Assembly: GCA_902539895.1 (NCBI GenBank)
Contig: CACBMD010000014.1
Span: 1 to 39,313, forward strand
DNA from: an uncultured SAR116 cluster alpha proteobacterium
GTDB lineage: Bacteria > Pseudomonadota > Alphaproteobacteria > Puniceispirillales > Marisalimonadaceae
DNA: 39,313 bases
Direction of reading: 5' to 3'
The translations under genes and the position numbers were made by a program. Below the pieces are notes generated by a model, which saw only the letters and a list, made by a program, of their open reading frames with translations, was not told the DNA's origin and searched no databases. Below, one piece after another: positions 4,362-34,211 of this stretch (the first letter of the stretch is position 1; each line of letters opens with the position of its first letter).

Positions 4362-4364
4362 TCT

Positions 4365-6296: not shown

Positions 6297-6366
6297 AAAA
6301 ATTTTTGAAATTACTTAATAATTGTGATGGCTGTGTTCCTTTCAAATTTCTTAAGGTTTTTTAATA

Positions 6367-7635: not shown

Positions 7636-7675
7636 TACGAACTTTGCCGCGGTAAAATGTCAAGCAAAGAAAAAG

Positions 7676-8803: not shown

Positions 8804-8875
8804 TTAAGAGGTTATTGCACGAAAATTACTGCTTAATAATCAGTATTCAGAGTCTTATCTTGGAATTGTTCTGAA

Positions 8876-10259: not shown

Positions 10260-10261
10260 AT

Positions 10262-13342: not shown

Positions 13343-13632
13343 CTCAGCTTCAGATAGGGTATTAAAACACTGTCGTTCTAGTTTCTTAAATATCTTAACC
13401 CAATCTTCTCTGACTTCCATTCACCAAAAAGCATAATCATTGTAAAAAAGACACTTTACCTCATTCTCCATCTTTGCCATGATAAGTTCAATTTTAATTG
13501 TAAAAGAAAGATATCTTTTAAAAGGCTTTATAATAGATTAAAATATCAGCTGGGAAGCTTTTAAATTTCATCTTAGGGTTACTGCAATAAATTAAACTAG
13601 GCTTTATATGAATAATTTGGGTTTAGTTTGCT
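13343..13632. other. 290-base spacer between convergent genes
   Basis: No gene is visible. A 12-bp palindrome AAAGATATCTTT lies at 13507-13518, and a related imperfect pair TTTAAAAG-GCT/AGCTTTTAAA spans about 13516-13566. One or both could end transcription from the two converging genes, but neither has a clear T-run in the right place. Confidence 0.3.
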
Positions 13633-15588: not shown

Positions 15589-15690
15589 ATTATTTTCTTT
15601 GTAAGCTTATAAATTTTTACATTTTAACTTATTAACTCAAATATTCAATAAAAGTTTACTTTAACGGAATATAAAAATTAATATTTTAAT

Positions 15691-16713: not shown

Positions 16714-17171
16714 TTTCTCTTTAAACTTATACTTAATGCAAAAACATTAGCTTTATAAATATTTAAGTTATAAACTTCAAAAGGTTGAATGTTTTTTTAA
16801 CGATCTTTCTGTAATTAATGATATGCTATAAATAAACATTAGATACAACATTAAATTATTTAGAATAAAATATTAAATACTTAGATTAAAACCTAAACCA
16901 AATATATAAAAAAATAATAAAAATTGAAAAGCTTAATGATCTAAATTGGTTGTGAGTAAAAAAAACTAGAAACAAACTAAAACCACTAAGATAAAATGCG
17001 CGGTTATATGCTTTTTTGCTGTATAGCTGACATATCCACTGACTAGTAAAATAAGGCATGCTAAAAATACTTTTTCGCAATGCAACACCTTAGAATAGGC
17101 AAAAAAAGTGCTGTTCATTCCCTAAACAAATATATAAAATGAACTTAAAACTTAATCAACGGAGCTGTGAG
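16714..17171. other. AT-rich 458-base divergent intergenic region
   Basis: This region separates the reverse-strand epimerase from the forward H-NS-like cassette and must hold promoters for both. A reverse-strand frame of 64 codons (16886-17080) with a hydrophobic end is present, but it lacks recognisable motifs and I do not call it a gene. It may be the eroded tail of a membrane protein, as expected where a glycan locus has exchanged genes. No strong hairpin or repeat was found. Confidence 0.4.
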
Positions 17172-17360
17172 TTGAAATCTTATGATGCGTTTAATGCTGA
17201 AATGGCATTAATCCAAAAACTCATGGTCGAAGCTAAGAAACACGAAAGTACCAATGTACTGAAGGAAGAAAAACGTATTTGTAAAGAGTTTAGCATTATT
17301 GCTGAGATGCAGAGAAGTTCATTAGCTGAAGGGAGAAAGACAAAAGGTAACTCTAAATGA
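17172..17360 (+). CDS. small H-NS-like protein
   Basis: Start chosen at TTG 17172, which has GGAG at 17161-17164 seven bases upstream; an ATG at 17139 in the same frame has no such site and would add 11 residues. The 62-residue product is basic and helical. Its core, with EMALIQKLMVEAKK, a charged EEKRICKEF segment and a final SLAEGRK, resembles short H-NS-family N-terminal dimerisation segments as I remember them; the DNA-binding loop (T-W-x-G-R-G) of full H-NS is absent. It may modulate a resident H-NS-type silencer of this AT-rich locus. Its stop overlaps the formyltransferase start (ATGA), so it leads a coupled operon. The family call is tentative; an unrelated coiled coil is possible. 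Confidence 0.45.
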   Translation: MKSYDAFNAEMALIQKLMVEAKKHESTNVLKEEKRICKEFSIIAEMQRSSLAEGRKTKGNSK

Positions 17361-18160
17361 AAATTGTGATTCTTACTGGTAGTGAGACAAGACATCTGTA
17401 CTTTCGGAAAAAACTGGCAAGCGACAAACGCATTAAAGTATTAGCAAGTTACTGTGAAAGTGACGAAAAAAGCTTAGCTAACCGGATGAGTCAGAATGCA
17501 CAAACTTCAAGATTAGAAATTCAGCATGTCGAAAGTAGGAAACAATCAGAAATTGACTTTTTTTCAGATTATATTGGAAGTTGTGAAGATGAATCAAATC
17601 CAAAATTGATTAAAAAAGGTGCTATTAATGATAAAGCTTTTGTTAACGAAATCGTAGCAATGAATCCAGACTTGCTAGTCTGCTATGGATCCTCCTTGAT
17701 CAAATCAGATTTGCTTACAAAATTTGAAAAGAAATTTTTAAATGTCCATCTTGGACTTTCACCATACTACAGAGGTAGTGGTACTAATGTGTGGCCACTA
17801 ATTAATCTCGAGCCTGATATGGTTGGTGCGACTTTTATGTACATTGACGCTGGAATAGATACTGGAAAGATCATCCATCAAATTCGTGCTGATGTTTTTT
17901 TAGGTGACAATCCTCATACAATTGGCAATAGACTTATTCGAAAAATGACATCAACTTATGCTGAAATTATATGTAGTTTTGGTAATTTAGAGAGTGAAAA
18001 GCAACCTCTATGTGAAGGAAAAATTTATTACCAAAAAGACTTCACAACTGAAGCTTGTAAGAAACTCTACCTTAATTTTGCACAGGGGATGATAGAGAAC
18101 TACTTAAACTCATCAAAGCAACTGCCATATATTGTAAATAACAAAGGCTTAATATCGTGA
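17357..18160 (+). CDS. sugar N-formyltransferase-like protein
   Basis: The 267-residue protein has the formyltransferase core: LLVCYGSSLI, then Asn129 and His131 in LNVHLGLSPYYRG, and Asp168 in DAGIDTGKII. These three residues form the catalytic set of the folate-dependent formyltransferase fold (Fmt, PurN, sugar formyltransferases). The family passes a formyl group from N10-formyltetrahydrofolate to an amine. The position in a glycan locus points to an amino-sugar acceptor, such as the 4-amino sugar made by the DegT enzyme. It overlaps genes on both sides by 4 bases. The N-terminal half (1-90) is less conserved and contains an unusual charged stretch. Confidence 0.78.
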   Translation: MKIVILTGSETRHLYFRKKLASDKRIKVLASYCESDEKSLANRMSQNAQTSRLEIQHVESRKQSEIDFFSDYIGSCEDESNPKLIKKGAINDKAFVNEIVAMNPDLLVCYGSSLIKSDLLTKFEKKFLNVHLGLSPYYRGSGTNVWPLINLEPDMVGATFMYIDAGIDTGKIIHQIRADVFLGDNPHTIGNRLIRKMTSTYAEIICSFGNLESEKQPLCEGKIYYQKDFTTEACKKLYLNFAQGMIENYLNSSKQLPYIVNNKGLIS

Positions 18161-19083
18161 AAGCTATAATGTATCACTATATAAGAAAGTTCGATTCCAG
18201 TTTGCCAAACTTCCGATTTCTTGATGTTGAAAATTTTAAAAAACAATTGGATTTTTTCCAAGAACAATTTGGATTTTTAACTAAGGATGAATTTCTGAAT
18301 GCTCTAGCAAAAAAAAAACTAGGAAGTGCTAAGGGAAAAGTTTTACTCACATTTGATGATGCCATGTCATGCCACTATGATTATGTATATAAGATTTTAA
18401 GTAAACGGGACTTATGGGGCATTTTTTATGTTCCGACGCAACCTTATCAAAAGGGGAAGGTTCTCGATGTTCACCGCATACATTTGCTGTGCGGAGCTTA
18501 TAGTGGCAACGAACTTCTTTCTACTCTAAACGTATTTCTTAATGAGGAAATGATTCCAGACGAAAAGCGTGAAGAGTTTCGAAAGAAAACCTATACTAGG
18601 CAAAGTAATTATGAAGGAATATCTGAGTTCAAGAGAATTCTGAACTACTTCGTGAGCTATGATTATCGTGAACAATTAATTGATTCAGTGGCACTTGAAC
18701 TGAATTATGTATTCCAAACAGCTAAATTTTATATTCCAGTGGATAAGCTGAATCAAATGCAACTCAAAGGGAATATAATAGGTTCTCATACGGTATCCCA
18801 CCCTGTTATGAGCAAACTTTCTAAAATAGAGCAGAATGAAGAAATTGAACATTCCTTCAGCTTTTTAGGGTCAAACCTTAAGCTTGATTTGAAAACCTAC
18901 TGTCATCCATATGGTGGTTTTCACTCATTCAATGAAGAAACTATAAGAGCTCTATCAGAGAAAGGGGTTGCATTCTCTTTTAATGTTGAGTCTCGAGATA
19001 TCTGTGACGAGGATTTGACTTCATCAATACAGTTTTTACCTCGATATGACTGCAACGAATTTCCTTTTGGAAAAGCGTCTTAA
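18157..19083 (+). CDS. polysaccharide deacetylase (NodB fold)
   Basis: The 308-residue protein starts at a GTG overlapping the formyltransferase stop (GTGA). It shows NodB motif 1 LLTFDDA with Asp67-Asp68, motif 2 GSHTVSHP with the two metal-binding histidines, and a CHPYGG motif 3. This family removes N-acetyl (or other acyl) groups from sugars with a divalent metal. No signal peptide is visible, so it probably acts in the cytoplasm on a nucleotide- or lipid-linked sugar rather than on exported polymer. Paired with a formyltransferase in one coupled operon, it could free an amine that is then formylated. The start MKAIMYHYIR is typical of the family. Confidence 0.8.
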   Translation: MKAIMYHYIRKFDSSLPNFRFLDVENFKKQLDFFQEQFGFLTKDEFLNALAKKKLGSAKGKVLLTFDDAMSCHYDYVYKILSKRDLWGIFYVPTQPYQKGKVLDVHRIHLLCGAYSGNELLSTLNVFLNEEMIPDEKREEFRKKTYTRQSNYEGISEFKRILNYFVSYDYREQLIDSVALELNYVFQTAKFYIPVDKLNQMQLKGNIIGSHTVSHPVMSKLSKIEQNEEIEHSFSFLGSNLKLDLKTYCHPYGGFHSFNEETIRALSEKGVAFSFNVESRDICDEDLTSSIQFLPRYDCNEFPFGKAS

Positions 19084-19295
19084 GAAATTTATGTCTTACA
19101 AAAAGGATTGATAAAACTCTTATATGAATGAGTAGTATGACAGACAGAAAAAGCAAAGCAGCAACTTTCGTAAGTTGCATTAAGAACGATTTGAAAAAGG
19201 CAGTCCATGTAATAAATTACCAAACCTAGACCTGGAACTCTTGTAAACCCAAAATCCATACTTTATAAATGTGCATTATGTTCATTTATTTGAAT

Positions 19296-20723
19296 TCATT
19301 TACGAGAATAAACATCTTCATATCTAATTATGTCATCTTCCCCTAAGTAAGTGCCTATTTGAACCTCAACTATAGTTAACATGTTTTTTTCTTGATTTTC
19401 GAGACGATGTAATGAACCTAATCGCACGTAAGTTGACTGTCCTGGGCCTATTACTTTGACGTTTTCATCAATAGTAACAACCGCTGACCCCTGAACAACA
19501 ACCCAATGCTCAGAACGATGTTTGTGACTTTGTAAACTTAGAGACGCTCCTGGCTTTACATTAATTTTTTTAACTTTAAAACCTTTTCCTTGACACAAAA
19601 TTTCAAATGATCCCCATGGACGATAATCTTTTGTAAATTCCTCAGATTGAGAAATATTCTTGGAATTAAGATATTCTACTACTTTTTTAACATCCTGATT
19701 TTTATTTTTATTAGCAACTAAGACAGCGTCCGGCATAGAAATAGCTACTATATTTTCCAGACCCAAACCTACAATTTCCTGATCTTTACTGTCTGATCGC
19801 AATAGAGTGTTTTTACATTCTATTGCGTGTGCATTTTGAGATAAAGCGACCCCATTATCATCTTTTTTAGATATTTGCCAAACAGAATTCCAATTACCTA
19901 AATCTGACCAACCAGAATAATAAGGAATTGCTACTAAGTTTTTTGTTTTTTCCATTATAGCATAATCTATACTAATTTCTTTTAAATTACTCCAGTAACT
20001 TCCATCTAGCTTTGTAAAAGATAAATCCTCTACGGATTGGTCTACAGATTTAACTACATTAGAGATTATATCTTTTGCATACAATTCAAAGGCACTAATC
20101 ATGTCTTTCGCGCGAAACATGAAAATGCCAGAATTCCAGAAATAATTACCTTCGTCGAGTATTCTTTTTGCAAGCATCTCATCTGGTTTTTCAATAAATT
20201 TTAATACATTGTTTGGGCCTTGCCTGCTAGATTTATCTACTTGAATATACCCATATCCAGTCTCAGGATATGATGGATTTATTCCAAAAGTTACTATTTT
20301 TCCATTTTCTATTTCATTAAGTCCAATTTTAATTACTTTATGAAAGTTTTTAGTATCACTTATAACATGATCAGTTGGAGTTGTGATAATGACTGCATCC
20401 TTATTATCCTTTTGTGCAAAAATTGTTGCCGCAATAATTGCAGGTGCAGTATTTTTGGGTTCCGGCTCGATTATAATTCTTCTAGGTTTTATTCCAATAG
20501 CTTGTAGTTGTTCCACTACAATAAATCTAAACTGTGAATTAGTAATAATTATATGTGGATTAAATTTTAAACCATCACTTCCTAAAACTCGTTGTGCTGA
20601 TTGTTGAAACAATGTTTCATTTGTAGTTAGTTGCATAAATTGTTTTGGGAAATTTTTTCGTGATGATGGCCAAAGACGAGTTCCTGACCCTCCAGCTAAC
20701 AATATTGGTGTTATGGTAAACAT
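19296..20723 (-). CDS. manC: mannose-1-phosphate guanylyltransferase / mannose-6-phosphate isomerase
   Basis: At 475 residues this matches the bifunctional type II enzyme (ManC/AlgA/XanB). The N-terminal nucleotidyltransferase domain has LAGGSGTRLWPSSRKNFPKQF beginning at residue 9, TPTDHVI and FIEKPDEMLAKRIL. The C-terminal cupin isomerase domain has KKINVKPGASLSLQSH and HRSEHWVVVQGSA with metal-binding histidines. It makes GDP-mannose for surface glycans. It reads leftward toward the polysaccharide locus, and its start faces the amidase gene across 234 AT-rich bases. Everything to its right is markedly more AT-rich than the glycan genes to its left. Confidence 0.92.
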   Translation of the reverse strand: MFTITPILLAGGSGTRLWPSSRKNFPKQFMQLTTNETLFQQSAQRVLGSDGLKFNPHIIITNSQFRFIVVEQLQAIGIKPRRIIIEPEPKNTAPAIIAATIFAQKDNKDAVIITTPTDHVISDTKNFHKVIKIGLNEIENGKIVTFGINPSYPETGYGYIQVDKSSRQGPNNVLKFIEKPDEMLAKRILDEGNYFWNSGIFMFRAKDMISAFELYAKDIISNVVKSVDQSVEDLSFTKLDGSYWSNLKEISIDYAIMEKTKNLVAIPYYSGWSDLGNWNSVWQISKKDDNGVALSQNAHAIECKNTLLRSDSKDQEIVGLGLENIVAISMPDAVLVANKNKNQDVKKVVEYLNSKNISQSEEFTKDYRPWGSFEILCQGKGFKVKKINVKPGASLSLQSHKHRSEHWVVVQGSAVVTIDENVKVIGPGQSTYVRLGSLHRLENQEKNMLTIVEVQIGTYLGEDDIIRYEDVYSRK

Positions 20724-20957: not shown

Positions 20958-21362
20958 ATGCTTATAAGTGGAAATATTAAATTACTAGTTGTTCACTGCT
21001 CTGATACAGACAATGATGAAGATTTAACCGCCTTAGATATCCATAAAATGCATCTAAATTTTGGTTGGGATGGTATAGGTTACCATAAAGTAATTTGTAG
21101 ATCAGGAAAAGTTGAAAATGGTAGGCCAGAGTATTGGATAGGCGCTCATGTAAAAGGTAAAAATGATGTCAGTTTGGGTGTCTGTCTAATAGGGCGTGAC
21201 GATTTTACTAAACCTCAATTTTCATCTTTAGAAGCGGTGTTAAGGGAATGGAAATCATTATATCCTGATGCAAAAATATTAGGCCATCGTGATACTGGAA
21301 ATACAAGTAAAACATGTCCAAATTTTGATATAGGGCTTTGGTGTAAAGATAAAAACTTATGA
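20958..21362 (+). CDS. N-acetylmuramoyl-L-alanine amidase, T7-lysozyme type
   Basis: The 134-residue protein is a minimal Amidase_2 domain. Zinc ligands are His13 (VVHCSDT), His110 (LGHRDTG) and Cys120, with the catalytic Tyr42 (GIGYHKVI) and Lys118 two residues before the Cys, as in T7 lysozyme. It cleaves the bond between MurNAc and L-Ala. There is no signal peptide, so it should work in the cytoplasm, the AmpD role in recycling anhydro-muropeptides. A captured phage endolysin is the alternative, but the gene shares an ATGA overlap with the downstream peptidase and sits among recycling genes, with no phage genes nearby. Confidence 0.85.
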   Translation: MLISGNIKLLVVHCSDTDNDEDLTALDIHKMHLNFGWDGIGYHKVICRSGKVENGRPEYWIGAHVKGKNDVSLGVCLIGRDDFTKPQFSSLEAVLREWKSLYPDAKILGHRDTGNTSKTCPNFDIGLWCKDKNL

Positions 21363-22114
21363 ACGTTATTAAACCATCTATTCCGATGAGATCTAACCCA
21401 GACCAAACATCAAGTTTAGAAACAGAATGTCTATTTGGAGAAACTATATCTATTTTAGATAATTATCTAGATTGGTATTATTGTAGACTTTTAACTGACA
21501 ACTATTGCGGATGGGTTCAAAAACAATGTTTTGGTGAGGTAATAAAACCTTCACATAGAGTGGTTTCTAACAGATCATATCTATTTAAAGAAAATGACAT
21601 TAAATCAGGTTGTATCAATTACTTACCATTGGGCTCACAAATTTATGTAGACGATTTTGACGATTTCTGGGCCAAAGTTTATCTTGGAAATGATGCAAAT
21701 CAGAAATTTGCTTACATACCAACGAAACATCTAGTTAGAAAAGATAAAAAAATTGATGATTGGGTAATTACAGCTGAAAAATTAATTGGAACCCCCTATG
21801 TTTGGGGAGGAAGAGATTCAATGGGGTTAGATTGTTCTGCTCTTCTTCAGCTATCGTATCAAACTTATGGTGAGAATATCCCCCGAAACTCAACTGATCA
21901 ATCATTACTTAATAAAGAAACAATTAAAAAAGACGAAACACTGAAAAGGGGATTTACTATTTTTTGGAGAGGACATGTTGGTATTATGGTAGATGAAACA
22001 TATTGTATTCATGCAAATGCCTTCCACATGGAGGTATCAAAAGAACCACTAGTAAATATTATAAAACGAGCAGGTAAAAATAATCCAATAATCAAAATTA
22101 TGAATTTCAACTAA
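21359..22114 (+). CDS. NlpC/P60 peptidase with SH3b domains, YkfC-like
   Basis: The 251-residue protein has two SH3b-like segments (about 1-60 and 68-125) followed by an NlpC/P60 domain. The catalytic set is Cys159 (GLDCSALLQ), His206 (RGHVGIM) and a polar third residue, probably His218 (CIHANAF). This layout matches YkfC, a gamma-D-glutamyl-diamino-acid endopeptidase that cuts released murein peptides inside the cell. No leader peptide is present. It follows the amidase with a 4-base overlap, so the pair would remove the stem peptide and then split it between D-Glu and the diamino acid. Its end overlaps the end of murQ by 8 bases on the opposite strand. Confidence 0.83.
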   Translation: MNVIKPSIPMRSNPDQTSSLETECLFGETISILDNYLDWYYCRLLTDNYCGWVQKQCFGEVIKPSHRVVSNRSYLFKENDIKSGCINYLPLGSQIYVDDFDDFWAKVYLGNDANQKFAYIPTKHLVRKDKKIDDWVITAEKLIGTPYVWGGRDSMGLDCSALLQLSYQTYGENIPRNSTDQSLLNKETIKKDETLKRGFTIFWRGHVGIMVDETYCIHANAFHMEVSKEPLVNIIKRAGKNNPIIKIMNFN

Positions 22115-22853
22115 TTAAATTAATTAATTTTTTTTTCCTTAGTCTTAGCTTTTCATTTGTAGGTACCATCTCAGTCATGAGCCCATTTTTCACTCTTCCC
22201 ATTTTAACCATTACCATAGAAGAAATAACATTAAGACATATTTTTTGAGATGTTCCAGCCTTAAGCCTGGTGGAACCTGCTATGACTTCAGCTTTAGTAT
22301 TAAGAATAATTTTATGATCACCACATTTTAAAATTTCACCATTAGGGTTATTACTTATTACAATAGTTAGGGCCTTCTGTGTTTTAGCTTTTTCCAATAC
22401 TCTGCAGGTAAAAGGAGTGTTACCACTAGCGGCAACACCGATCACAACATCTTCATGAGAAATCAATTTATCTTCTACTATTTTTTCAGCCGAATATGTA
22501 TCATCTTCAGCATTTTCTACGGCATTCATTAAGGCATTAATGCCGCCAGCAATTATAAAATCTAAACGTTCCTTTGGCCAATTAAATGTTGGAAATAATT
22601 CAACTCCATCCTGCACACCTATTCTGGCGGAAGTTCCTGCTCCTACATATATTAACCTACCTTTTGAGTTTGAAGTTAAGTGTTTATAAATAGCTTCTAT
22701 GGCACGCTCAATTGAGTTAATTGATCTTTTTACCTCCAAAGTAGCATCTTTATGTTCTTTGATCATTAGGGATAGCCCATCGAAAAGACTTAAATGATCA
22801 ATTGGTTTGCTTTTCTGATATAGAAGTTCAGTTTTAGGTATATTTTTAGACAT
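22107..22853 (-). CDS. murQ: N-acetylmuramic acid 6-phosphate etherase, short form
   Basis: The 248-residue SIS-domain protein has GRLIYVGAGTSARIGVQD, the two catalytic glutamates Glu85 (GVELFPTF) and Glu113 (AVENAEDD), AASGNTPFT and AGSTRLKAGTSQK, all diagnostic of MurQ. It removes D-lactate from MurNAc-6-phosphate to give GlcNAc-6-phosphate. It ends right after NEKLRLRKKKL, whereas the E. coli enzyme is about 298 residues, so the C-terminal helical (UBA-like) domain is missing. No frameshift explains this, because the gene runs straight into the convergent NlpC/P60 gene. It is divergent from anmK with 42 bases between. Confidence 0.9.
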   Translation of the reverse strand: MSKNIPKTELLYQKSKPIDHLSLFDGLSLMIKEHKDATLEVKRSINSIERAIEAIYKHLTSNSKGRLIYVGAGTSARIGVQDGVELFPTFNWPKERLDFIIAGGINALMNAVENAEDDTYSAEKIVEDKLISHEDVVIGVAASGNTPFTCRVLEKAKTQKALTIVISNNPNGEILKCGDHKIILNTKAEVIAGSTRLKAGTSQKICLNVISSMVMVKMGRVKNGLMTEMVPTNEKLRLRKKKLINLIS

Positions 22854-22895
22854 AATTCATATTATATAATTTAATTAAAAAGGTAAAAATTAATT

Positions 22896-23987
22896 TTGCA
22901 ATATCCTTATTTAAACATTATTGGGCTAATGACTGGAACCAGTATGGACGGAATTGACATCAGTTTAGTTGAAACTAATGGCTTGGATTTAAATAGGTTG
23001 AATAAAAATTTTTTTTACGAATACAGTATTGAAACAAAAAAAACATTAACCAGTATTTTAAAACATAGTCTGAGTTTTAATTTAAACAGAAAAAAATTTT
23101 TGGATAATTTTATCACTAATGAACATTATTGTGCTTTAAAAGATTTAGATATTCTAAGTTCTTCTGACTTAATAGGTTTTCATGGCCAAACTTTGTATCA
23201 TGAACCTAATAATAAAATTTCTATTCAACTAGGCAACCCTAAGAAACTTGCAAAGATGTTGAATAAAAACGTAATTTTTGACTTTAGATCAAAAGATCTT
23301 TCTTTAGGCGGGCAGGGAGCACCTATAGCTCCTATATATCACCAATTTATTATGGAAAGATCAAATCTAGAATTACCAAGCTGTTTTTTAAATATTGGCG
23401 GTATTTCTAATTTAACTTTTTGGGATGGAAAATCATTAATTGGTTTTGACACTGGACCAGGTAATGCATTGATGGATGATTTTATGATTAGCAAATTAAA
23501 CAAAAATTATGACGTGAATGGAATTATTGCCTCAAAAGGAATTGTCATTAAAAAAGAAGTAGAAAATTTCCTAAAATTAGAATTTTTTAAAAAAACACCT
23601 CCTAAATCTCTTGATAGAAAGAGTTTTTCAATTTTTTATCATCAGCTAATTCAAAAAAAATACTCTATTAATGACATTATGGCTACATTGGCCGAATTAA
23701 CAGTTGAGACTATTATATATAGTTTAGGACTTTTACCTAAAAAAATTAAAAATATTATAATAACTGGAGGTGGGTACAGAAATACACATCTAATGAACCG
23801 CCTAAAAAATAAATTAAAAATAAAAATTTTTAACGAAAAACAACTTGGAATTAACTTTGACTATATTGAAGCTGAACTGATAGCTTATTTATCTGCAAGA
23901 TCAATCTACAACCTTCCGTATACATTTCCATCTACAACTGGAGTTTCTAAACCATCATCAGGAGGGTGTTTATATCAATATTTATAA
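22896..23987 (+). CDS. anmK: anhydro-N-acetylmuramic acid kinase
   Basis: The 363-residue protein begins QYPYLNIIGLMTGTSMDGID after a TTG start; GLMTGTSMDGID is the ATP-binding signature of AnmK. GFHGQT, the LGGQGAPIAP turn, NIGGISNLT, GFDTGPGNALMD and the C-terminal ITGGGYRN complete the ASKHA-fold pattern. It hydrolyses the 1,6-anhydro ring of anhMurNAc while phosphorylating O6, giving MurNAc-6-P for MurQ, whose gene is divergent and adjacent. AGG in AAAAAGGT lies about a dozen bases before the TTG, and no upstream ATG is in frame. Its last codons overlap the end of the PIG-L gene on the other strand by 6 bases. Confidence 0.92.
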   Translation: MQYPYLNIIGLMTGTSMDGIDISLVETNGLDLNRLNKNFFYEYSIETKKTLTSILKHSLSFNLNRKKFLDNFITNEHYCALKDLDILSSSDLIGFHGQTLYHEPNNKISIQLGNPKKLAKMLNKNVIFDFRSKDLSLGGQGAPIAPIYHQFIMERSNLELPSCFLNIGGISNLTFWDGKSLIGFDTGPGNALMDDFMISKLNKNYDVNGIIASKGIVIKKEVENFLKLEFFKKTPPKSLDRKSFSIFYHQLIQKKYSINDIMATLAELTVETIIYSLGLLPKKIKNIIITGGGYRNTHLMNRLKNKLKIKIFNEKQLGINFDYIEAELIAYLSARSIYNLPYTFPSTTGVSKPSSGGCLYQYL

Positions 23988-24671
23988 AAATCCATACTTA
24001 TTTTCTATGTGAAACGGTCTTAATTTAAGGGGAGCTGGTAAAAATTCTCTTATATCTGAAAAAGGAAATGAAGGTATAAAACTATATGCCTCAGCATAGT
24101 AACCTATTGGAGCATTACATTGAGCTGCTCTGTAAGAATTCATTAACTCAAATAAACTGACAAATCTTTTGGGGTCTTGTGTTTTATGTTTCAAAACAGC
24201 TTCTTTTTTAAATTTATAATGATCCGTAATATCTATATAATAGTTAGGATTAAAATTAATACCCAATAGAGTATCACAATATAAAATTGGAATATAATGA
24301 CTTACTGCTTCTTTAGTTATTAAGGACAATGATTTATGATCTGCATGATAATCATTTTCAGAATGTGTAATAATCAAATCAGGCATGATTTTTAAAATAT
24401 TCTCTTTAATTATTTTTTTATGTCCTAATTCTCCACCCAATTCTCCATCTGGTAAGTTTAAGAAGATTGGTGAAGATAATTTTTCTAAACCACTGATAGC
24501 TTCCTTGGCTCTCTCCTTTGCCAATTTCTTACCTGTAATTTTGCCGCCTTGTGCACCATCTGTAGCAATCATTGTATAAACTTGATGTCCTTCATTTTTA
24601 TAAATAGAAAGCAAACCATACATAAAAATTTCAATATCATCAGGATGAGCACCAATCCCTAAAACTTTCAT
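23982..24671 (-). CDS. PIG-L/LmbE-family N-deacetylase
   Basis: The 229-residue protein has the zinc motif AHPDD (His9, Asp11, Asp12) and the second histidine group HADH (109-112), the hallmark of LmbE/PIG-L deacetylases such as MshB, BshB and diacetylchitobiose deacetylase. Members remove acetyl from GlcNAc units in small conjugates. Here it lies between anmK and a GH84 gene, so a substrate from recycled murein (GlcNAc or its phosphate) is the natural guess. No signal peptide is visible, implying cytoplasmic action. It is divergent from the GH84 gene with 56 bases between. Use on an unrelated amino sugar of the surface glycan cannot be excluded. Confidence 0.82.
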   Translation of the reverse strand: MKVLGIGAHPDDIEIFMYGLLSIYKNEGHQVYTMIATDGAQGGKITGKKLAKERAKEAISGLEKLSSPIFLNLPDGELGGELGHKKIIKENILKIMPDLIITHSENDYHADHKSLSLITKEAVSHYIPILYCDTLLGINFNPNYYIDITDHYKFKKEAVLKHKTQDPKRFVSLFELMNSYRAAQCNAPIGYYAEAYSFIPSFPFSDIREFLPAPLKLRPFHIENKYGFL

Positions 24672-24727
24672 TATATTTTTCTCCGAATTAAGATAATATA
24701 CTATTGCAACTTTAAAAAAGATATCAA

Positions 24728-25882
24728 ATGAAAAATAATGAAAGTAACATCATCGGGTATATAGAGGGCTACTATGGAAGACTACTTTCTTGGGAAAATA
24801 GAAGACTTATAATTAAATCACTCCATAAAAACAAGATGAACACTTATTTCTATGCTCCAAAGGAAGATATTTGTCATAGATTATGCTGGAGAAAAAAATA
24901 TAATAAAAAATGGCGTCTTGATTTCAGAGATTTCATTCAATTTAGCAAAAAAAATAATATTAACATCATAGCTGGAATTGCTCCTGGACTAGATTTTAAT
25001 TTTAAAGAATTGCACAATTTTTCTTCAAATAATGATGACTCAGATTTCGAATTACTCCTAGAAAAAGCTAAACAGTTACTTGAGGATGGAGCAAGTTCTA
25101 TAGCTTTAATGCTTGACGACATTCCCAATGATTTTAAAAAAAAATTTGGTATTGATATTTCTGAAGGAACATATCATTCTATTTTAGCCAACAATCTTGC
25201 AAAAGATTTAGGACAAAACATTTTTTTAGTTCCTAGAATTTATGCTGATGAATTAATAAAAGATGATCCTTGTTACTTAAGAGATTTAAGTAAGACCCTT
25301 AATCCTAATATAAAAATATTTTATTGTGGCAAAAATGTAGTTGCTAGAACTTACAAAAATTTCGTAAAAACTATAAAAAATTTATCAAATGATATAATTA
25401 TATGGGATAATTTTTACGCTAATGATTATTGTCCTAGGCGTTTTTTTATTGGGCCAACTTTAGGTAGAGAAAACTTAAAAAATGTATTGATCAACCCAAC
25501 AGGATTAATAAAAACTGATCTCCTAATATTAGATATATTTGGTAAGAGTATCATTGGGGAAATTTCAAAAAATGAATGGGAAAATATTTTAATTAATCAT
25601 AATGTTCCAAAAAAATTTCTTAAAATAAAAAAATATTTTTTAAAACCAGATTTTGGATTAAATCCATCCACTCAATCAATTAAGATTAAGAAAGGTGATA
25701 TAGAAATATTAGATTTTCTTTTATGGGAATGGAAATGTGAGTTATCAATAGAATGGTACCCTTATTTGTTTGGTTTGAAGCAAGATTTACAAATCAATCA
25801 AAAACTTCTACCTTCAGAGCGGATGATTAAAAGTCAAACTATCCCTTTGTCAAAATTTCTAAATAGAGGAGAAATAAAATGA
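24728..25882 (+). CDS. GH84-family beta-N-acetylglucosaminidase
   Basis: The 384-residue protein follows the GH84 (O-GlcNAcase/NagJ) catalytic-domain pattern: GYIEGYYGRLLSW (10-22), NTYFYAPKEDICHRLCWRKKY (38-58), AGIAPGLDF (82-90), and LMLDDIPNDF with the catalytic Asp130-Asp131 pair. GH84 enzymes cleave terminal beta-GlcNAc by substrate-assisted catalysis. No signal peptide and no extra carbohydrate-binding domain are seen, so it is a cytoplasmic catalytic core. Among anmK, murQ and ampG it is well placed to split GlcNAc-anhMurNAc, the job of NagZ (GH3) elsewhere. Composition is very AT-rich (25321-25380 has 14 G/C of 60). It overlaps the next gene by 4 bases. Confidence 0.82.
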   Translation: MKNNESNIIGYIEGYYGRLLSWENRRLIIKSLHKNKMNTYFYAPKEDICHRLCWRKKYNKKWRLDFRDFIQFSKKNNINIIAGIAPGLDFNFKELHNFSSNNDDSDFELLLEKAKQLLEDGASSIALMLDDIPNDFKKKFGIDISEGTYHSILANNLAKDLGQNIFLVPRIYADELIKDDPCYLRDLSKTLNPNIKIFYCGKNVVARTYKNFVKTIKNLSNDIIIWDNFYANDYCPRRFFIGPTLGRENLKNVLINPTGLIKTDLLILDIFGKSIIGEISKNEWENILINHNVPKKFLKIKKYFLKPDFGLNPSTQSIKIKKGDIEILDFLLWEWKCELSIEWYPYLFGLKQDLQINQKLLPSERMIKSQTIPLSKFLNRGEIK

Positions 25883-26757
25883 AAAAAATCGGTTTTGTTG
25901 GCTTAGGTAATATGGGCGCTAGAATGGTAACAAATCTCTTGAAAGCTAATTATGAAGTTATTGGATATGATATTAATGAAGAATTTGTGGAACAACTTTT
26001 ACCGAAAGGACTTAAAAAAGCCTCTGATTTAAATGATATATCAAGAGACATAGATATAATAATCACAATGTTACCTAATGGTGAAATTGTAGAGGAAGTC
26101 TTAAATAATATAATAGATAACTTGAAGCCTGGTACATTGATAACAGACTGCTCGACTATTGATGTAGATAAAGCAAAAGCTTTACATATAAAATGTGAAG
26201 ATAGGAAACTTTTGTCTCTTGATGCTCCAGTTTCGGGTGGTGTTGGTGGAGCTGAAAATGGCACACTAACTTTTATGGTAGGTGGTAGAGAAAATGCCTA
26301 TCAAATGATGTTACCATTATTTGAAGTAATGGGTAAAAAGTCACTTCTTTGTGGATCATATGGCACTGGACAAGCTACAAAAGCATGTAATAACATGTTA
26401 TTAGCAACAACTATGATTGGAGTAGGAGAAGCTTTTAACCTAGGTAAAAATTTAGATTTAGATCCTCAAAAACTATTTGAAATTTTGTCAACTTCAACTG
26501 GCTCATGTTGGGCAATAAATAATTATTGTCCTATAAAAGGGGTAGGACCAGAGAGTCCCGCAGACAACAACTTTGAACCGGGGTTTTCAGCAAGCCTAAT
26601 GTTTAAAGATTTAAGTATAGCTCTTAAAGCTATTCAAAGTACAAATACATATGCACCTTTTGGAACGAAAGCCCAAGAAAATTTTGGAAATATGGTAAAC
26701 CAAAAACAAGGTAGCTTAGATTTTTCAGCGATAACAAAATTCAATGAACAAAGCTAA
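25879..26757 (+). CDS. mmsB: 3-hydroxyisobutyrate dehydrogenase
   Basis: The 292-residue protein shows the beta-hydroxyacid dehydrogenase pattern: NAD-binding GFVGLGNMGARM (4-15), substrate loop DAPVSGGVGGAENGTLTFMVGG, catalytic lysine in GQATKACNNMLLA, and SGSCWAINNYCP-like STGSCWAINNYCP. The last, with the conserved PADNNFEPGFSASLMFKDL, marks the MmsB branch of valine breakdown (3-hydroxyisobutyrate to methylmalonate semialdehyde). It starts within an ATGA overlap on the GH84 gene, an unexpected pairing. Other valine-degradation genes are not in the window, so a different short hydroxyacid substrate is possible. Its stop lies inside a 12-bp hairpin that probably ends the transcript. Confidence 0.85.
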   Translation: MKKIGFVGLGNMGARMVTNLLKANYEVIGYDINEEFVEQLLPKGLKKASDLNDISRDIDIIITMLPNGEIVEEVLNNIIDNLKPGTLITDCSTIDVDKAKALHIKCEDRKLLSLDAPVSGGVGGAENGTLTFMVGGRENAYQMMLPLFEVMGKKSLLCGSYGTGQATKACNNMLLATTMIGVGEAFNLGKNLDLDPQKLFEILSTSTGSCWAINNYCPIKGVGPESPADNNFEPGFSASLMFKDLSIALKAIQSTNTYAPFGTKAQENFGNMVNQKQGSLDFSAITKFNEQS

Positions 26758-26771
26758 AATAGCTTTGTTCA
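26745..26771. terminator. 12-bp perfect hairpin between convergent mmsB and hppA genes
   Basis: Arms TGAACAAAGCTA (26745-26756) and TAGCTTTGTTCA (26760-26771) are exact reverse complements with a 3-base loop. The mmsB stop codon is inside it and the hppA stop is 11 bases beyond. It works equally on both strands, as expected for a shared terminator, though the flanking bases form only weak T-tracts. Confidence 0.6.
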
Positions 26772-26781
26772 ATAATTCAAA

Positions 26782-28794
26782 TTAGATTAAAAGTGGTGCT
26801 ATAACTAAACTTACTATAGCCATAACATTAATTAAAATGTTCATTGATGGACCAGATGTATCTTTCAAAGGATCGCCAACAGTGTCGCCGACAACAGCAG
26901 CTTTATGAACATCAGAACCTTTACCACCAAAATTACCTTTTTCAACAAATTTCTTTGCATTGTCCCATGCTCCACCTGCATTAGACATCATCAAAGCCAT
27001 CATTACACAACATATGAGAGCACCACCTAACATACCCCCAAGAGCTTTTGGTCCAAGTAAAAAACCTATAATCACAGGTGACAATACAGCTAAGGCTCCT
27101 GGTGCAATCATTTTTCTTAGCGCCGCTCTTGTTGCAATATCTACACATCTTGCTGTGTCTGGTTTTGCTTTCCCTTCCAATAGACCTGGAATTTCTTTGA
27201 ATTGCCTTCTAATTTCTTTTATCATATCAAAAGCAGCATCACCAACTGCAGTCATAGTCATAGAACTAACTAAAAAAGGGAAAATCCCGCCCAAAAACAT
27301 CCCACATAAAACTAATGGATCATTAATAGCCAAGACAAAATTTTCATCTGCGATTGATATTTTTTCAATATAGGCACTTATCAATGCTAATGCAGCCAAT
27401 GCAGCAGCACTTATAGCAAACCCCTTTCCAATAGCAGCTGTCGTATTTCCAACTTCATCTAAAGAATCAGTAATTTGTCTAGTATCTTTTCCCATCTCTG
27501 ACATTTCTGCAATACCACCTGCGTTGTCAGCAACTGGGCCGTATGCATCAATTGCCATCGTAATACCAACTGTACTTAACATTCCAACAGCAGCAATACC
27601 AACACCATAAAGACCTGCATAAATATTTGATATAAAAATTATAGACACAATTGTTAAGACTGGTATTGCTACTGATTGCATGCCAGTTGCCAAACCAGAT
27701 ATTAAAACAGTTGCAGAGCCAGTTTCTCCATCCTTTGCTATTTTTTCTACAGGACTACCACCAGTATAATATTCAGTTATTAATCCCACTACTATCCCTC
27801 CAACTGATCCAACTAAAACTGCTATCCAAACACCAATAGAAACACCCATCAAATCAACTAAAAAATAGGATAATATTACAAAAAGAACTGCAGAACCGAT
27901 TGTACCATATCTAAGAGCCGTTTCTGCACTTTTTGAAGAGAAAAGTTTTACTGTCAAAATACCAAGTAACGAGCATATTATTCCTAAAGAGGCAAGAGCT
28001 AATGGCATAAATTGAAGTAAATATTGGTTACCTCCTAAGGAGTTAATAGTAGCACTTGTCATCGACGCAGCAAGAGCTATACAAGCAATCATAGATCCAC
28101 AATATGATTCAAAAATATCTGAACCCATTCCAGCAACATCCCCAACATTATCTCCAACATTATCTGCAATAACTCCCGGGTTTCTTGGGTCATCTTCAGG
28201 TATCCCAGCTTCTACTTTTCCAACTAGGTCAGCTCCAACGTCAGCGCTTTTAGTAAAAATTCCACCACCTACTCTTGAAAATAAAGCTACTGATGAAGCA
28301 CCCATAGCAAAACCTTCAATTGCATGTATTGTTTTAATGTCACCTGCAAAATAGTGAAATAAAATTCCTACACCAAACAGACCCATAGCTGCAACTGTTA
28401 ACCCCATAATTGAACCACCAAAAAAAGCAATATTCAAAGCCTCAGACGCACCTTGTTCTTTAGCAGCAACAGCAGTCCTTACATTTGCCTTTGTTGCTGA
28501 ATACATACCTATAAAACCTGCTGTACCTGAACATAATGCTCCAAGAAAAAATGATATAGCAGTTTGCCAACCAAGAGAAAAATATAAGGCTGCTATACAT
28601 ACTAAGCAAAAAACAGCTAATCTTTTGTATTCTGCAGACATGAAAACCATTGCACCAAGATGTATCTCATCTCCAATTTCTTTCACTCGACCTTCACCTT
28701 CAGATGAGGATCTTACTTTAACATATACTAAGTAAGCTGATAGTAATCCGAGAAGACCAAGTATAACTGATATTAATGAATATGGCATTTGCAA
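26782..28794 (-). CDS. hppA: membrane-bound pyrophosphatase, K+-dependent type
   Basis: The 670-residue protein is an ion-pumping pyrophosphatase with about 16 membrane helices. Pyrophosphate-binding segments include [11 protein letters not shown] (185-195), the D-N-V-G-D-N-V-G-D run at 211-219 and DNAGGIAEM (423-431), with a C-terminal [14 protein letters not shown]. It couples PPi hydrolysis to cation export across the inner membrane. At the potassium switch it reads [11 protein letters not shown], with Ala453 and Gly456; K+-independent proton pumps have Lys and Thr there. So this is the K+-requiring subfamily. Whether it moves H+ or Na+ is not decided. It lies downstream of the YkuD gene on the same strand. 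Confidence 0.93.
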
Positions 28795-28865
28795 ACCCTA
28801 ATTTTATTTAAAAAAATACTTTTAATTCGATTAGTTAAATCTGTAAAGTTTTATATTTTTTTGAG

Positions 28866-29408
28866 TTAATTTTGGATTTTTATATATGTGTTACGATTAA
28901 TATTTTTTAGCAAAAAAACTAAATCATTTTTTTTCAAAGCGATACAACCTGACGTTTTTCTATTATCTAAAAAACTACAATGAATAAAAATTGCACTACC
29001 CTTATTTTTAATCGTAGGTTCAATATTGTGTGAGGTAACAATTACTATATCATAGGCTTCATCTTCTCTCCACAACTTTTCATAATTAATATTATGCGAT
29101 TGAAAATCACTAATTTTTATATATTGATTATACCTGTAACTTTTAATATCATCGCACCAAGCACAGTTTTTCGTGATTTTATTAACTTTAAAATTATTTT
29201 TTTTCTTAAATTTTGGTTTAAAAACTTTATCGGATCTATAATAAATTGTTTTTAAATACCAATTGCCAATAGGTGTGGTTTTGTCACCTTCAGTTTTTTT
29301 TACAGCCTTCTCAAGACCATTTTCGCCTATTTGACATGGGAAGGCTTTATTACCTACTTTTAGGAAATATTTCTTATTAAGTCTTATTAATAACCAATTT
29401 TTTGTCAT
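28866..29408 (-). CDS. leaderless YkuD-domain protein (L,D-transpeptidase or L,D-carboxypeptidase)
   Basis: From ATG 29408 the protein is 180 residues (a TTG two codons upstream is less likely). The C-terminal YkuD motif has His143 in IFIHCS and the nucleophile Cys155 in TSGCIAL, the expected H-x-n-S/T-x-G-C order. The N-terminus MTKNWLLIRLNKKYFLKV forms a beta strand, not a signal peptide, and the domain lacks LysM or other wall-binding modules. Secreted YkuD enzymes crosslink murein, but a leaderless one beside ampG fits the cytosolic recycling role shown for ElsL in Acinetobacter, where it trims terminal D-Ala. It is divergent from ampG with 84 bases between. Confidence 0.8.
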   Translation of the reverse strand: MTKNWLLIRLNKKYFLKVGNKAFPCQIGENGLEKAVKKTEGDKTTPIGNWYLKTIYYRSDKVFKPKFKKKNNFKVNKITKNCAWCDDIKSYRYNQYIKISDFQSHNINYEKLWREDEAYDIVIVTSHNIEPTIKNKGSAIFIHCSFLDNRKTSGCIALKKNDLVFLLKNINRNTYIKIQN

Positions 29409-29426
29409 AAGCAATTATAAATAAAA

Positions 29427-29454
29427 TTGAAACAAAAAAATATATTTTTATAAG
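29427..29454 (+). promoter_or_regulatory. candidate promoter for ampG
   Basis: TTGAAA at 29427-29432 and TATAAG at 29449-29454 with a 16-base spacer precede the ampG ATG (29493) by about 40 bases. This lies in an 84-base divergent spacer which must carry promoters for both genes. AT-richness makes chance matches likely. Confidence 0.3.
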
Positions 29455-29492
29455 AAATTAGAGTAAATTTTAGACTTTTGAAAGATCATATT

Positions 29493-30872
29493 ATGATAGA
29501 ACAAAAACAAAACTGGCACCAATTAATTTTGGTTTACAAAGACTTAAGAATGCTAAAAATTTTACTACTTGGCGCAATAAGTGGTTTCCCATGGGTACTA
29601 ATAGCTAGCAGTTTAAGCCTTTGGCTAAAAGAAGAGGGATTGAGCAGATCAACTATTGGTTGGGCAGGTTTAATTTTTGGTGTTTACGCGTTTAATTATT
29701 TATGGGCTCCATTAATTGATAGAATTCAAATACCTCTAATAACAAAAAAACTAGGCCACAGACGTGGATGGATAATTTTAATGCAACTAATAATTTTAAT
29801 AAGTTTGATAGTTTGGAGTTTTATAGACCCATCGCAAAACTTAGCTTTATTAATTTCCGTAGGATTAGTCATTGCTATTGCCTCAGCCACACAAGATATA
29901 ACTGTTGATGCTCTAAGAATTGAACAAATAAATGAAAACGAAACAAAAGTCATGGCCGCTGGTGCTGCAATGGCAGTAGTTGGTTGGTGGACAGGATACA
30001 AATTAGGTGGCGCCTTAGCTTTGTTTATAGCAGAAGTTTTTGAGAATATGGGTATTGTTGATTATTGGCAAACAACTTTCCTAGTTTTAGGCTTTGTAAT
30101 AATTGTAATGAATATTTGTTTAATGTGCATTCATGAGCCAATTAAAACTGACAGAGAAACAAAACAAAAAGAAATTGATATAGCACTCGCAAAAAGATTT
30201 AGATCTATCAACTTAATAACTAAATTTGTTGTATATATTACTGGAACTATAGGTGGACCAATTATAAGTTTCTTTAAAAAAAATGGCTTTACTATTGCTG
30301 TAGGAATATTAGGTTTTATTTTCTTTTTCAAGATTGGAGAGGCCTTTCTTGGAAGAATGTCTATAGTTTTTTATAAAGAAATTGGTTTTTCAAAAGGACA
30401 GATTGCTATTTACTCCAAAAGTCTTGGTTGGATCACAACTATTGTTTTTACATTGTTAGGAGGTGTCATGGCAATGAGAACAGGAACAATTAAAACCATG
30501 TTTTTCGCTGGCGGATTGATGGCACTTACTAACCTTTTATTTGCTTTTTTGGCTTGGACTGGAAAATCTGAATTACTATTTGCAGTTGCTGTCATAGCTG
30601 ATGACATTTCAGCAGCATTTGCAACAGTAGCATTTGTTGCGTTTATCTCATTATTAGTTGATAGAAATTATACCGCTACTCAATATGCTTTGCTTGCGTC
30701 TTTAGGAACAGCTGGTAGAACAACCCTAGCATCATCATCAGGAGCTCTTGTTGATTGGCTTAATGGTGATTGGGGAGTGTTTTTTATTTTAACCACCTTA
30801 ATGGTAATTCCTTCTTTAGTTTTTTTATGGTTCATAAGAAATAAAATAAAATTTGGCAAAGATAACTTTTAG
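29493..30872 (+). CDS. ampG: AmpG-type muropeptide permease (MFS)
   Basis: Start chosen at ATG 29493 (MIEQKQNW); a TTG at 29478 would add five residues. The 459-residue protein has about 12 membrane helices. AmpG-type signatures are GFPWVLIASSLSLWLKEEGLS in the first helix (with GLSRSTIGW following), LWAPLIDRI, a GHRRGW cytoplasmic loop and ATQDITVDALRIE in the fourth helix. AmpG imports GlcNAc-anhMurNAc peptides from the periplasm, the entry step for all the recycling enzymes encoded to the left. No fusion or truncation is seen; the length agrees with short alphaproteobacterial forms. An independent promoter is likely because it diverges from the YkuD gene. Confidence 0.85.
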   Translation: MIEQKQNWHQLILVYKDLRMLKILLLGAISGFPWVLIASSLSLWLKEEGLSRSTIGWAGLIFGVYAFNYLWAPLIDRIQIPLITKKLGHRRGWIILMQLIILISLIVWSFIDPSQNLALLISVGLVIAIASATQDITVDALRIEQINENETKVMAAGAAMAVVGWWTGYKLGGALALFIAEVFENMGIVDYWQTTFLVLGFVIIVMNICLMCIHEPIKTDRETKQKEIDIALAKRFRSINLITKFVVYITGTIGGPIISFFKKNGFTIAVGILGFIFFFKIGEAFLGRMSIVFYKEIGFSKGQIAIYSKSLGWITTIVFTLLGGVMAMRTGTIKTMFFAGGLMALTNLLFAFLAWTGKSELLFAVAVIADDISAAFATVAFVAFISLLVDRNYTATQYALLASLGTAGRTTLASSSGALVDWLNGDWGVFFILTTLMVIPSLVFLWFIRNKIKFGKDNF

Positions 30873-33473: not shown

Positions 33474-34211
33474 TTGCAAACCATCGTATGCATGAAATGG
33501 GGATCGAAATACGGTTCTGAATATGTAAACAGACTACACAAATCGATAAAAAAACATACCAAACGTGCGACCCAACTTTATTGCTTTACTGATAATACTA
33601 CTGATATTAATGAAGATATAACATGTAAACCGTTACCAAAAATCTCTTTGCCAAATACAATTTCTTTTACACCTTGGAGGAAAATGAGTTTATGGCAATA
33701 TCCTCTTTATAATCTAGAGGGTGATATTTTATTCTTAGACCTAGATTTAGTGATCACAGGTGATTTAGATCGCTTTTTCGACTTCAAACCAGGCTTTTAT
33801 TGCGTAATTGAAAATTGGACACAAATAGGAAAAAATATTGGAAACACGAGTTGTTTTAGGTTTCCTGTTGGAAAGTATAATTCAATATTTGAAGAGTTTG
33901 AAAAAAACCCCAAAAAATATTGGAAAAAATACCATATAGAACAAGTTTATTTAAGTGATCAAATTCAAGATCAAGTTTTTTGGCCATCTGAATGGTGCAA
34001 AAGCTTTAAACATGACCTTCTTCCTAGATGGCCACTTAGAATTTGGCAACCAGCAAAACTTCCTCAAGACACGTCGATAGTTGCTTTTACAGGAAAACCA
34101 GATCCTGATGACGTAGTTAATGGTGTATGGCCAGTAAAAAAATCACAAATTTTTAAAAAAGTTTATAAACAATTAAAAACTCCTCAATGGGTTCTTGATA
34201 ATTGGTTATAA
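33474..34211 (+). CDS. GT-A-like glycosyltransferase with DxD motif
   Basis: The 245-residue protein starts at TTG 33474, well supported by AGGA at 33463-33466 seven bases upstream. It carries a D-x-D metal/nucleotide-sugar motif, Asp89 and Asp91 in DILFLDLDLVITGDLD, a feature of GT8-like GT-A enzymes. The opening TIVCMKWGSKYGSEYVNRL and the later ENWTQ and GNTSCFRF belong to a family I recall from marine bacteria near surface-glycan genes but which has no firm substrate assignment. It is probably cytoplasmic, adding one sugar to a core or O-antigen chain. It converges on the hydroxyacid dehydrogenase gene with only two bases between stops. Confidence 0.7.
   Translation: MQTIVCMKWGSKYGSEYVNRLHKSIKKHTKRATQLYCFTDNTTDINEDITCKPLPKISLPNTISFTPWRKMSLWQYPLYNLEGDILFLDLDLVITGDLDRFFDFKPGFYCVIENWTQIGKNIGNTSCFRFPVGKYNSIFEEFEKNPKKYWKKYHIEQVYLSDQIQDQVFWPSEWCKSFKHDLLPRWPLRIWQPAKLPQDTSIVAFTGKPDPDDVVNGVWPVKKSQIFKKVYKQLKTPQWVLDNWL

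Follow-up and report, generated by a model that had tools for sequence, protein, structure and literature searches.

How can a bacterium recycle muropeptides when NagZ, the textbook glucosaminidase of that process, appears to be missing from its genome? The question is raised by a gene cluster at positions 20958-30872 of the stretch analysed here (the window), which is 39,313 nucleotides long and forms contig C14 (CACBMD010000014.1, assembly GCA_902539895.1) of a 1.44-Mb, 69% complete genome. The window's lineage is SAR116 (Puniceispirillales), and the closest named relatives of its GH84 protein are SAR116 cluster and Candidatus Puniceispirillum entries, with identities from 79% down. A first-pass annotation had described the cluster as a nearly complete peptidoglycan-recycling pathway in one place, with unrelated proteins in place of several canonical enzymes. 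The eight families are indeed clustered and conserved in SAR116, and the locus probably encodes a nearly complete recycling pathway. We read it, with a probability of about 0.72 judged from sequence and gene context, as a cytosolic anhydro-muropeptide recycling pathway of SAR116 built with substitute enzymes.

Pfam or NCBIfam profiles matched all eight families in the interval, as first listed; two further genes between them had been overlooked. The ten genes are as follows.

20958..21362, + strand: Amidase_2 protein, T7-lysozyme/PGRP-like, leaderless (PF01510, 4.1e-13, 50 bits); proposed anhydromuramoyl-L-alanine amidase (AmpD step)
21359..22114, + strand: NlpC/P60 protein with SH3_16, leaderless, YkfC/dipeptidyl-peptidase VI-like (PF00877 and PF18348); proposed gamma-D-Glu-meso-diaminopimelate (mDAP) endopeptidase
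22107..22853, - strand: MurQ, N-acetylmuramic acid 6-phosphate etherase, 248 aa (NF003915, 276.7 bits, cut-off 168)
22896..23987, + strand: AnmK, anhydro-N-acetylmuramic acid kinase (PF03702, 1.5e-75; NF007141, 366 bits, cut-off 352)
23982..24671, - strand: PIG-L/LmbE deacetylase (PF02585, 3.2e-22, 80 bits); proposed deacetylase of N-acetylglucosamine (GlcNAc) 6-phosphate, or of GlcNAc (NagA step)
24728..25882, + strand: GH84 (O-GlcNAcase family) protein, leaderless, 384 residues (PF07555, 1.1e-45, 157 bits); proposed hydrolase of GlcNAc-anhydro-N-acetylmuramic acid (GlcNAc-anhMurNAc; NagZ step)
25879..26757, + strand: 3-hydroxyisobutyrate dehydrogenase-like protein (HIBADH; TIGR01692, 333.6 bits, cut-off 291.6)
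26782..28794, - strand: H+-translocating pyrophosphatase (PF03030, 3.8e-255)
28866..29414, - strand: YkuD protein, leaderless (PF03734, 1.1e-11, 46 bits); proposed cytosolic L,D-carboxypeptidase (LdcA step)
29478..30872, + strand: AmpG muropeptide permease (TIGR00901, 373 bits, cut-off 350)

Conservation of the cluster in SAR116

The conservation of the gene neighbourhood was surveyed by tblastn of the window proteins against 73 GH84 loci, and at least one partner was found near GH84 in 32 of them. With loci from the numbered genomes added, 32 non-duplicate loci extended 7 kb or further from GH84 in both directions, and 29 of these are from SAR116. All eight families were present in 18 loci of this full-flank set, every one of them among the 29 from SAR116, where AnmK was found in 29, AmpG and MurQ in 28 each, PIG-L and YkuD in 26 each, NlpC in 24 and the amidase in 22. 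With partners recurring near GH84 in 32 of 73 loci and the complete set in 18 of the 29 SAR116 loci, chance does not account for the clustering. The eight families lie within only about 7.2-7.4 kb in several loci from other genera (L114, L104 and L102). Two other genes separate AmpG and YkuD from the rest in the window's clade, the set being kept together despite the changed order.

GH84 and AnmK also occur together. Across 111 genomes of the order, taken to be SAR116/Puniceispirillales, GH84 was detected in 77 and AnmK in 75, with both in 73, GH84 only in 4, AnmK only in 2 and neither in 32 (Fisher 4e-21, uncorrected for kinship). The two lie on one contig in 66 of the 73 genomes, separated by at most 3431 bp. 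In the subset of 43 genomes with a completeness of 90% or more, GH84 and AnmK were each found in 31. Two of the six discordant genomes, G021 and G070, fall in this subset, and in both the contig ends at the expected position of the partner. Five SAR116 genomes that are 90-100% complete (G012, G026, G031, G042 and G044) have neither GH84 nor AnmK, the two genes searched there, and may have lost recycling as a set. In addition, the GH84 and AnmK matches at G069:C25:3332-5896 are split over several frames, some with internal stops, and this copy is decaying or misassembled.

The eight proteins are encoded by closely spaced genes on alternating strands, with 4-bp overlaps between the amidase and NlpC/P60 genes and between the GH84 and HIBADH-like genes. 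MurQ and AnmK are divergent, AnmK and PIG-L convergent and overlapping, and PIG-L and GH84 divergent. The description of the amidase, NlpC/P60 and YkuD proteins as leaderless, extended here to GH84, was checked with a simple scan only, in which the 35 N-terminal residues of homologous open reading frames (ORFs) were examined for hydrophobic segments, with duplicates of one genome included. At a lax threshold that flagged only two of four lipobox-bearing comparison proteins, the N-terminus was called hydrophobic in 0 of 98 GH84, 0 of 35 YkuD, 0 of 37 amidase, 0 of 55 AnmK, 1 of 39 NlpC, 1 of 42 MurQ and 4 of 42 PIG-L ORFs. The highest GH84 value, 1.93, lies below those of all four lipobox-bearing proteins (2.02-2.42).

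Other genes come and go around this set. HIBADH and the H+-pyrophosphatase were considered as pathway members and rejected because their cluster homologues (in 12 and 11 of 45 compared loci) are confined to the window's clade; they are probably passengers. An M19 peptidase (dipeptidase family) gene is present in 15 of the 45 loci, outside the window's clade and absent from the window; it adjoins GH84 at L095:7207-8226 and L096:6918-7949, the loci from which its Pfam name was taken, and comparison with NCBIfam yielded no name for it. The enzyme could split the L-Ala-D-Glu dipeptide. A HAD phosphatase-like gene occurs in 17 of the 45 loci, its Pfam name coming from one member that adjoins the amidase (L030:99-800) and falls below every NCBIfam equivalog cut-off.

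In the rest of the window, surface-polysaccharide genes occupy 3237-20723, immediately upstream of the cluster, and comprise glycosyltransferases, a sugar dehydrogenase, epimerases, an aminotransferase, a formyltransferase, a polysaccharide deacetylase and ManC. A 245-aa ORF without a Pfam match lies at 33474-34211; a recurrent ORF, also of 245 aa, stands beyond a GT4 gene in 8 of the 45 loci and, likened by length, probably belongs to the same family. A gamma-glutamyltranspeptidase gene is found near the cluster at 37666-39276.

GH84 at the glucosaminidase step

In an alignment of 29 GH84 proteins, eight residues of the cluster protein (K45, D130, D131, Y172, W226, N228, D233 and N256) never vary, and they align with the catalytic pair and pocket residues of human O-GlcNAcase (OGA); for human residues other than Asp174, Asp175 and Asp285, the numbers and roles in this comparison are those we presume. 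D130 and D131 are the predicted catalytic residues. In the human enzyme, Asp174 and Asp175 are catalytic and Asp285 lies at the bound GlcNAc (PMC6333286, in excerpt). An AlphaFold model of the cluster protein, with a mean predicted local distance difference test score of 87, matched human OGA, OgOGA and BtGH84 in Foldseek at E of about 1e-18, with a TM-score of about 0.7 by query length and a root-mean-square deviation of 5.7-7.3. The protein thus has the Asp-Asp pair, the GlcNAc pocket and the fold of the GH84 family. It is a GH84 protein and not one with the GH3 domain of NagZ, and it could only act like NagZ, not be a NagZ.

Canonical nagZ, ldcA or nagA genes elsewhere in the genome would contradict such substitutions, and the check made for them gave no match to GH3, S66 (the LdcA family), GH20 or NagA in the window's own, 69% complete genome. 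In the 111 genomes of the order, S66 and GH20 were found in none and GH3 in one (G104). The G104 match was not accepted as a NagZ, since it is beta-xylosidase/glucosidase-like and the ORF containing it has further matches to a Rossmann-fold family and to an ABC ATPase. NagA exceeded its cut-off in 12 of the 111. The check did not contradict the proposed substitutions. As positive controls, 14 genomes gave matches in 10 (GH3), 6 (S66) and 4 (GH20). Moreover, a NagZ model searched against 385 Alphaproteobacteria genomes matched 319, 256 of them above its cut-off, and none of the five SAR116 members.

GH84 is rare outside the order (6 of 380 Alphaproteobacteria genomes), and each of the six carriers has a NagZ-model match as well, weak in two cases, so that GH84 alone does not imply the replacement of NagZ. 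It might instead be a protein O-GlcNAc hydrolase, or a general hydrolase of GlcNAc glycosides, that merely lies beside recycling genes, with the NagZ step being performed elsewhere or not at all. Its closest solved relatives are indeed O-GlcNAcases, and a functional bacterial O-GlcNAc hydrolase has been reported from Thermobaculum terrenum (PMC4683255, in excerpt). Furthermore, 41 of the 73 GH84 loci, mostly from SAR86, have no recycling gene nearby, and locus L062, from SAR86, has GH84 among release-factor, methyltransferase, ThiF, AMP-binding and MaoC genes. Against this explanation, GH84 and AnmK are present or absent jointly (73 genomes with both and 32 with neither, of 111), AnmK accompanies GH84 in all 29 full-flank SAR116 loci, and the 111 genomes hold neither a NagZ-type GH3 nor a GH20 protein. 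We regard it as quite improbable. The proposal that GH84 takes the place of NagZ is well supported by the gene context and the co-occurrence with AnmK, and this replacement appears quite likely from the sequence comparisons.

The arrangement is not confined to SAR116. AmpG lies near GH84 in all six Granulosicoccaceae loci, which are from metagenome-assembled genomes, and in three of them (L019, L022 and L023) the amidase, NlpC/P60, AnmK and MurQ are also nearby. GH3 proteins are present in four of the six Granulosicoccaceae genomes, scoring 146-156 bits with the NagZ model (cut-off 207); since all four start with lipobox-like sequences, they are probably exported. Among 22 further genomes with a solitary GH84 (22 of the 41 such loci, most of them SAR86), AnmK was found in 15 and some GH3 in 19, and the two SAR86 GH3 proteins examined are beta-glucosidase-like. 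SAR86 is therefore a possible, weaker case of GH84 at the NagZ step.

The deacetylase, amidase and peptidase steps

The cluster's candidate for the NagA step belongs to the PIG-L family and not to the amidohydrolase family of NagA. It carries an AHPDD motif, and its profile is closest to diacetylchitobiose deacetylase (8bgn, 1.3e-23). Its replacement of NagA, which the first-pass annotation raised as no more than possible, was examined as mutual exclusion, with PIG-L counted within 3 kb of GH84 or AnmK and NagA anywhere in the genome (TIGR00221, at least 99 bits). In the 73 genomes with both GH84 and AnmK, 59 have PIG-L only, 10 NagA only, 4 neither and none both (Fisher 1.6e-9), NagA thus being found in 0 of 59 genomes with a cluster PIG-L versus 10 of 14 without it. 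The 30 of these genomes that are at least 90% complete divide into 20, 7, 3 and 0 (Fisher 6e-5; 0 of 20 versus 7 of 10). In genus g12, NagA lies within the cluster itself (L097, L105, L112, L124, L127 and L128), and in G040 it is near AnmK and MurQ. Genus g7 contains both states, with NagA away from the cluster in G003, G037 and G054 and PIG-L in the cluster in G022, G090 and G096. On a GH84 tree, the PIG-L/NagA state changes at least three times.

These data have to be weighed against the possibility that PIG-L acts on another substrate, such as a bacillithiol-like thiol precursor or a sugar handled by the neighbouring polysaccharide genes, and that the exclusion of NagA is a coincidence of lineage. 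The best NCBIfam match of PIG-L is BshB1, albeit at 68 bits, well under the cut-off of 182.5. The exclusion counts include related genomes, and of five independent pairs on the GH84 tree only three are informative; all three go in the predicted direction, a number too small for significance (sign test, p = 0.25). In addition, the cluster is retained with neither a cluster PIG-L nor NagA in G001 and G009, each a single contig, and in G030, whose only PIG-L match is short and lies on a different contig; the NagA step is left unexplained in these three genomes. In the fourth genome without either deacetylase (G102) the contig ends there. The gene beside GH84 in two of the three (L095 and L096) was considered as a deacetylase and rejected, being the M19 peptidase. 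Many SAR116 genomes also have a 407-aa frame (at G016:C1:71287-72390, for example) whose match to the NagA model is weak, at about 30 bits, and split in two; it was not counted as NagA. The coincidence explanation nevertheless seems rather unlikely given the exclusion itself, the NagA gene that occupies the same cluster in g12 and the proximity of the PIG-L profile to diacetylchitobiose deacetylase. We therefore somewhat favour PIG-L as a putative replacement of NagA: the idea gains from the mutual exclusion and loses from the three genomes with neither. Separately, in G002, which lacks GH84, NagA adjoins a NanK-like kinase (L140:5279-7307) and probably serves sialic acid use.

The amidase was correctly described as a leaderless Amidase_2, although its T7-lysozyme-like rather than AmpD-like nature had been overlooked. 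It scores only 24.7 bits with the AmpD equivalog NF008758 (cut-off 143), and its closest solved chain is T7 lysozyme (1.2e-20). The His of its HCS motif, the His of GHR and the Cys of TCP align with a His, His and Cys of the lysozyme, which we take to be zinc ligands. For the NlpC/P60 protein, the closest solved chains are dipeptidyl-peptidase VI (3pvq, 2.8e-11) and the NLP/P60 protein 3h41 (1.4e-10), presumably a YkfC. It has the architecture of YkfC and dipeptidyl-peptidase VI, with SH3 followed by NlpC/P60 and no leader.

The YkuD protein is leaderless and has a conserved Cys in genomes without LdcA, a combination shared with ElsL. Its putative catalytic residues, C157 and H145, are the same in all 19 sequences compared. 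At E up to 1, its profile matched only three solved chains, all weakly, namely two Pgp2 entries (E 0.0043) and 4xzz (E 0.023), which we assume to be YkuD-fold L,D-carboxypeptidases (Pgp2 and Csd6). A single-sequence search gave nothing at E 1. The proposal that this protein replaces LdcA draws support from the missing leader, the conserved Cys and the S66 count of 0 in 111 genomes. It is weakened by the little that the absence of LdcA implies, as discussed below. The replacement is nonetheless likely on these features, and known in kind from ElsL.

AnmK, MurQ and AmpG reach their family scores, the last two at subfamily level. MurQ, at 248 aa shorter than the 300-position model, passes NF003915 (subfamily) and scores 202.9 bits with the equivalog TIGR00274 (cut-off 302); the solved MurQ 4lzj matches it at 1.9e-41. 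AmpG passes TIGR00901 (subfamily) and does not reach the equivalogs NF008867 and NF008238.

The proposed pathway and known recycling systems

The chemistry of the pathway is established for the canonical enzymes. From the gene identities, clustering, catalytic residues, co-occurrence, canonical absences and PIG-L/NagA exclusion, we infer the following substrates, activities and order of steps. AmpG would import GlcNAc-anhMurNAc-peptides produced by lytic transglycosylases, and the cytosolic T7-lysozyme-like amidase would cut off the peptide. The YkuD protein would trim the terminal D-Ala, converting tetra- to tripeptide, and the YkfC-like NlpC/P60 protein would cleave the gamma-D-Glu-mDAP bond. 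GH84, as a stand-in for NagZ, would use the substrate-assisted catalysis typical of its family to release the GlcNAc at the non-reducing end of GlcNAc-anhMurNAc. AnmK would then convert anhMurNAc to N-acetylmuramic acid 6-phosphate and MurQ would convert the latter to GlcNAc-6-phosphate, which, or GlcNAc, PIG-L may deacetylate where NagA is missing.

A different use of the same genes would be to scavenge environmental or prey peptidoglycan as food. The YkfC-like peptidase and the M19 gene (in 15 of 45 loci) suggest that the peptide is degraded rather than religated, as such a use would have it. AmpG, AnmK and the cytosolic set, on the other hand, point to anhydro-muropeptides released by the cell's own lytic transglycosylases, and the scanned genes of the window yielded no candidate for an exported peptidoglycan hydrolase. 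Scavenging is thus unlikely, and recycling of the cell's own wall is the preferred reading.

Several further observations speak against the recycling pathway as proposed. The source genome is only 69% complete, limiting the absences there, and none of the cluster genes was recognised as a GlcNAc kinase. The GH84 family search matched none of the 14 control genomes. In a fold search, the YkuD model had no match at E 0.001, its best hits being L,D-transpeptidases (weak, E 0.015). YkuD was undetected in three clusters of family f2 that retain the other genes (L096, L129 and L130), and MurQ was undetected in three g12 clusters with NagA (L097, L105 and L112), though it is present in L124, L127 and L128 of the same genus. 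The Caulobacter control gave no S66 match, and Caulobacter has been described as lacking LdcA and as an improbable carrier of any enzyme of this kind (PMC13046382, in excerpt). The absence of LdcA is therefore weak evidence and not special to SAR116.

The substitute-enzyme interpretation as a whole is partly supported by this analysis: the replacement of NagZ by GH84 is well supported and that of NagA by PIG-L gains support, while two substitutions are already known in kind. One is the YkfC-type peptidase, a putative stand-in for MpaA, with YkfC of Bacillus as its precedent. The other is the YkuD L,D-carboxypeptidase, known from ElsL (PMC8649774, in excerpt). GH84 or PIG-L in these roles was not described in the literature surveyed, which consisted of titles and the beginnings of abstracts, with few subscription papers and no bioRxiv preprints; where GH84 and peptidoglycan recycling appear together in that literature, NagZ inhibitors are concerned. 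Tentatively, at slightly less than even odds, cytosolic GH84 of the O-GlcNAcase type may be an independently evolved alternative to NagZ in SAR116, Granulosicoccaceae and perhaps SAR86, paired in SAR116 with PIG-L as a new GlcNAc-6-phosphate deacetylase alternating with NagA. If true, an order-wide replacement of NagZ would mean that cytosolic bacterial relatives of human O-GlcNAcase have a native function in recycling, and that GH3-based inhibitors and annotation rules can miss the NagZ step. The alternation of PIG-L and NagA makes the proposed new deacetylase directly testable, and the joint distribution of GH84 and AnmK suggests that recycling is retained or lost as a unit in these marine bacteria.

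Compared with the canonical pathway of E. coli (AmpG-AmpD-NagZ-LdcA-AnmK-MurQ-NagA; PMC13046382 and PMC9790009, both in excerpt), the SAR116 locus shares the AmpG, AnmK and MurQ families, and the same chemical steps can be assigned. It differs in that the 111 genomes of the order hold no NagZ-type GH3 or S66 protein, and in that GH84, YkuD, PIG-L and a T7-lysozyme-like amidase stand in one locus. Caulobacter, of the same class, keeps NagZ and NagA and is missing LdcA, Mpl and MurQ (PMC13046382, in excerpt). ElsL, the cytosolic YkuD L,D-carboxypeptidase of Acinetobacter baumannii, is likewise a leaderless YkuD protein with a conserved Cys in an organism without LdcA, whereas the cluster protein is likened to it by domain and context, its closest solved sequence being Pgp2, weakly. 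With the GH84 O-GlcNAcases (human OGA, OgOGA, BtGH84 and NagJ) the cluster GH84 shares the family, the fold and the eight checked residues; unlike them, it is compact, leaderless and located in a recycling locus, and its proposed substrate is GlcNAc-anhMurNAc, not glycoproteins. Among the PIG-L/LmbE deacetylases, diacetylchitobiose deacetylase and BshB1 share the family and the AHPDD motif with the cluster protein and are its closest solved chains, whereas its proposed substrate is GlcNAc-6-phosphate and it alternates with NagA across genomes. Finally, the YejBEF-YepA recycling system of Rhizobiales (PMC9790009, in excerpt) is also alphaproteobacterial and also has one recycling step performed by an unrelated protein, but there the transporter is replaced and NagZ kept, whereas SAR116 keeps AmpG and NagZ is missing.

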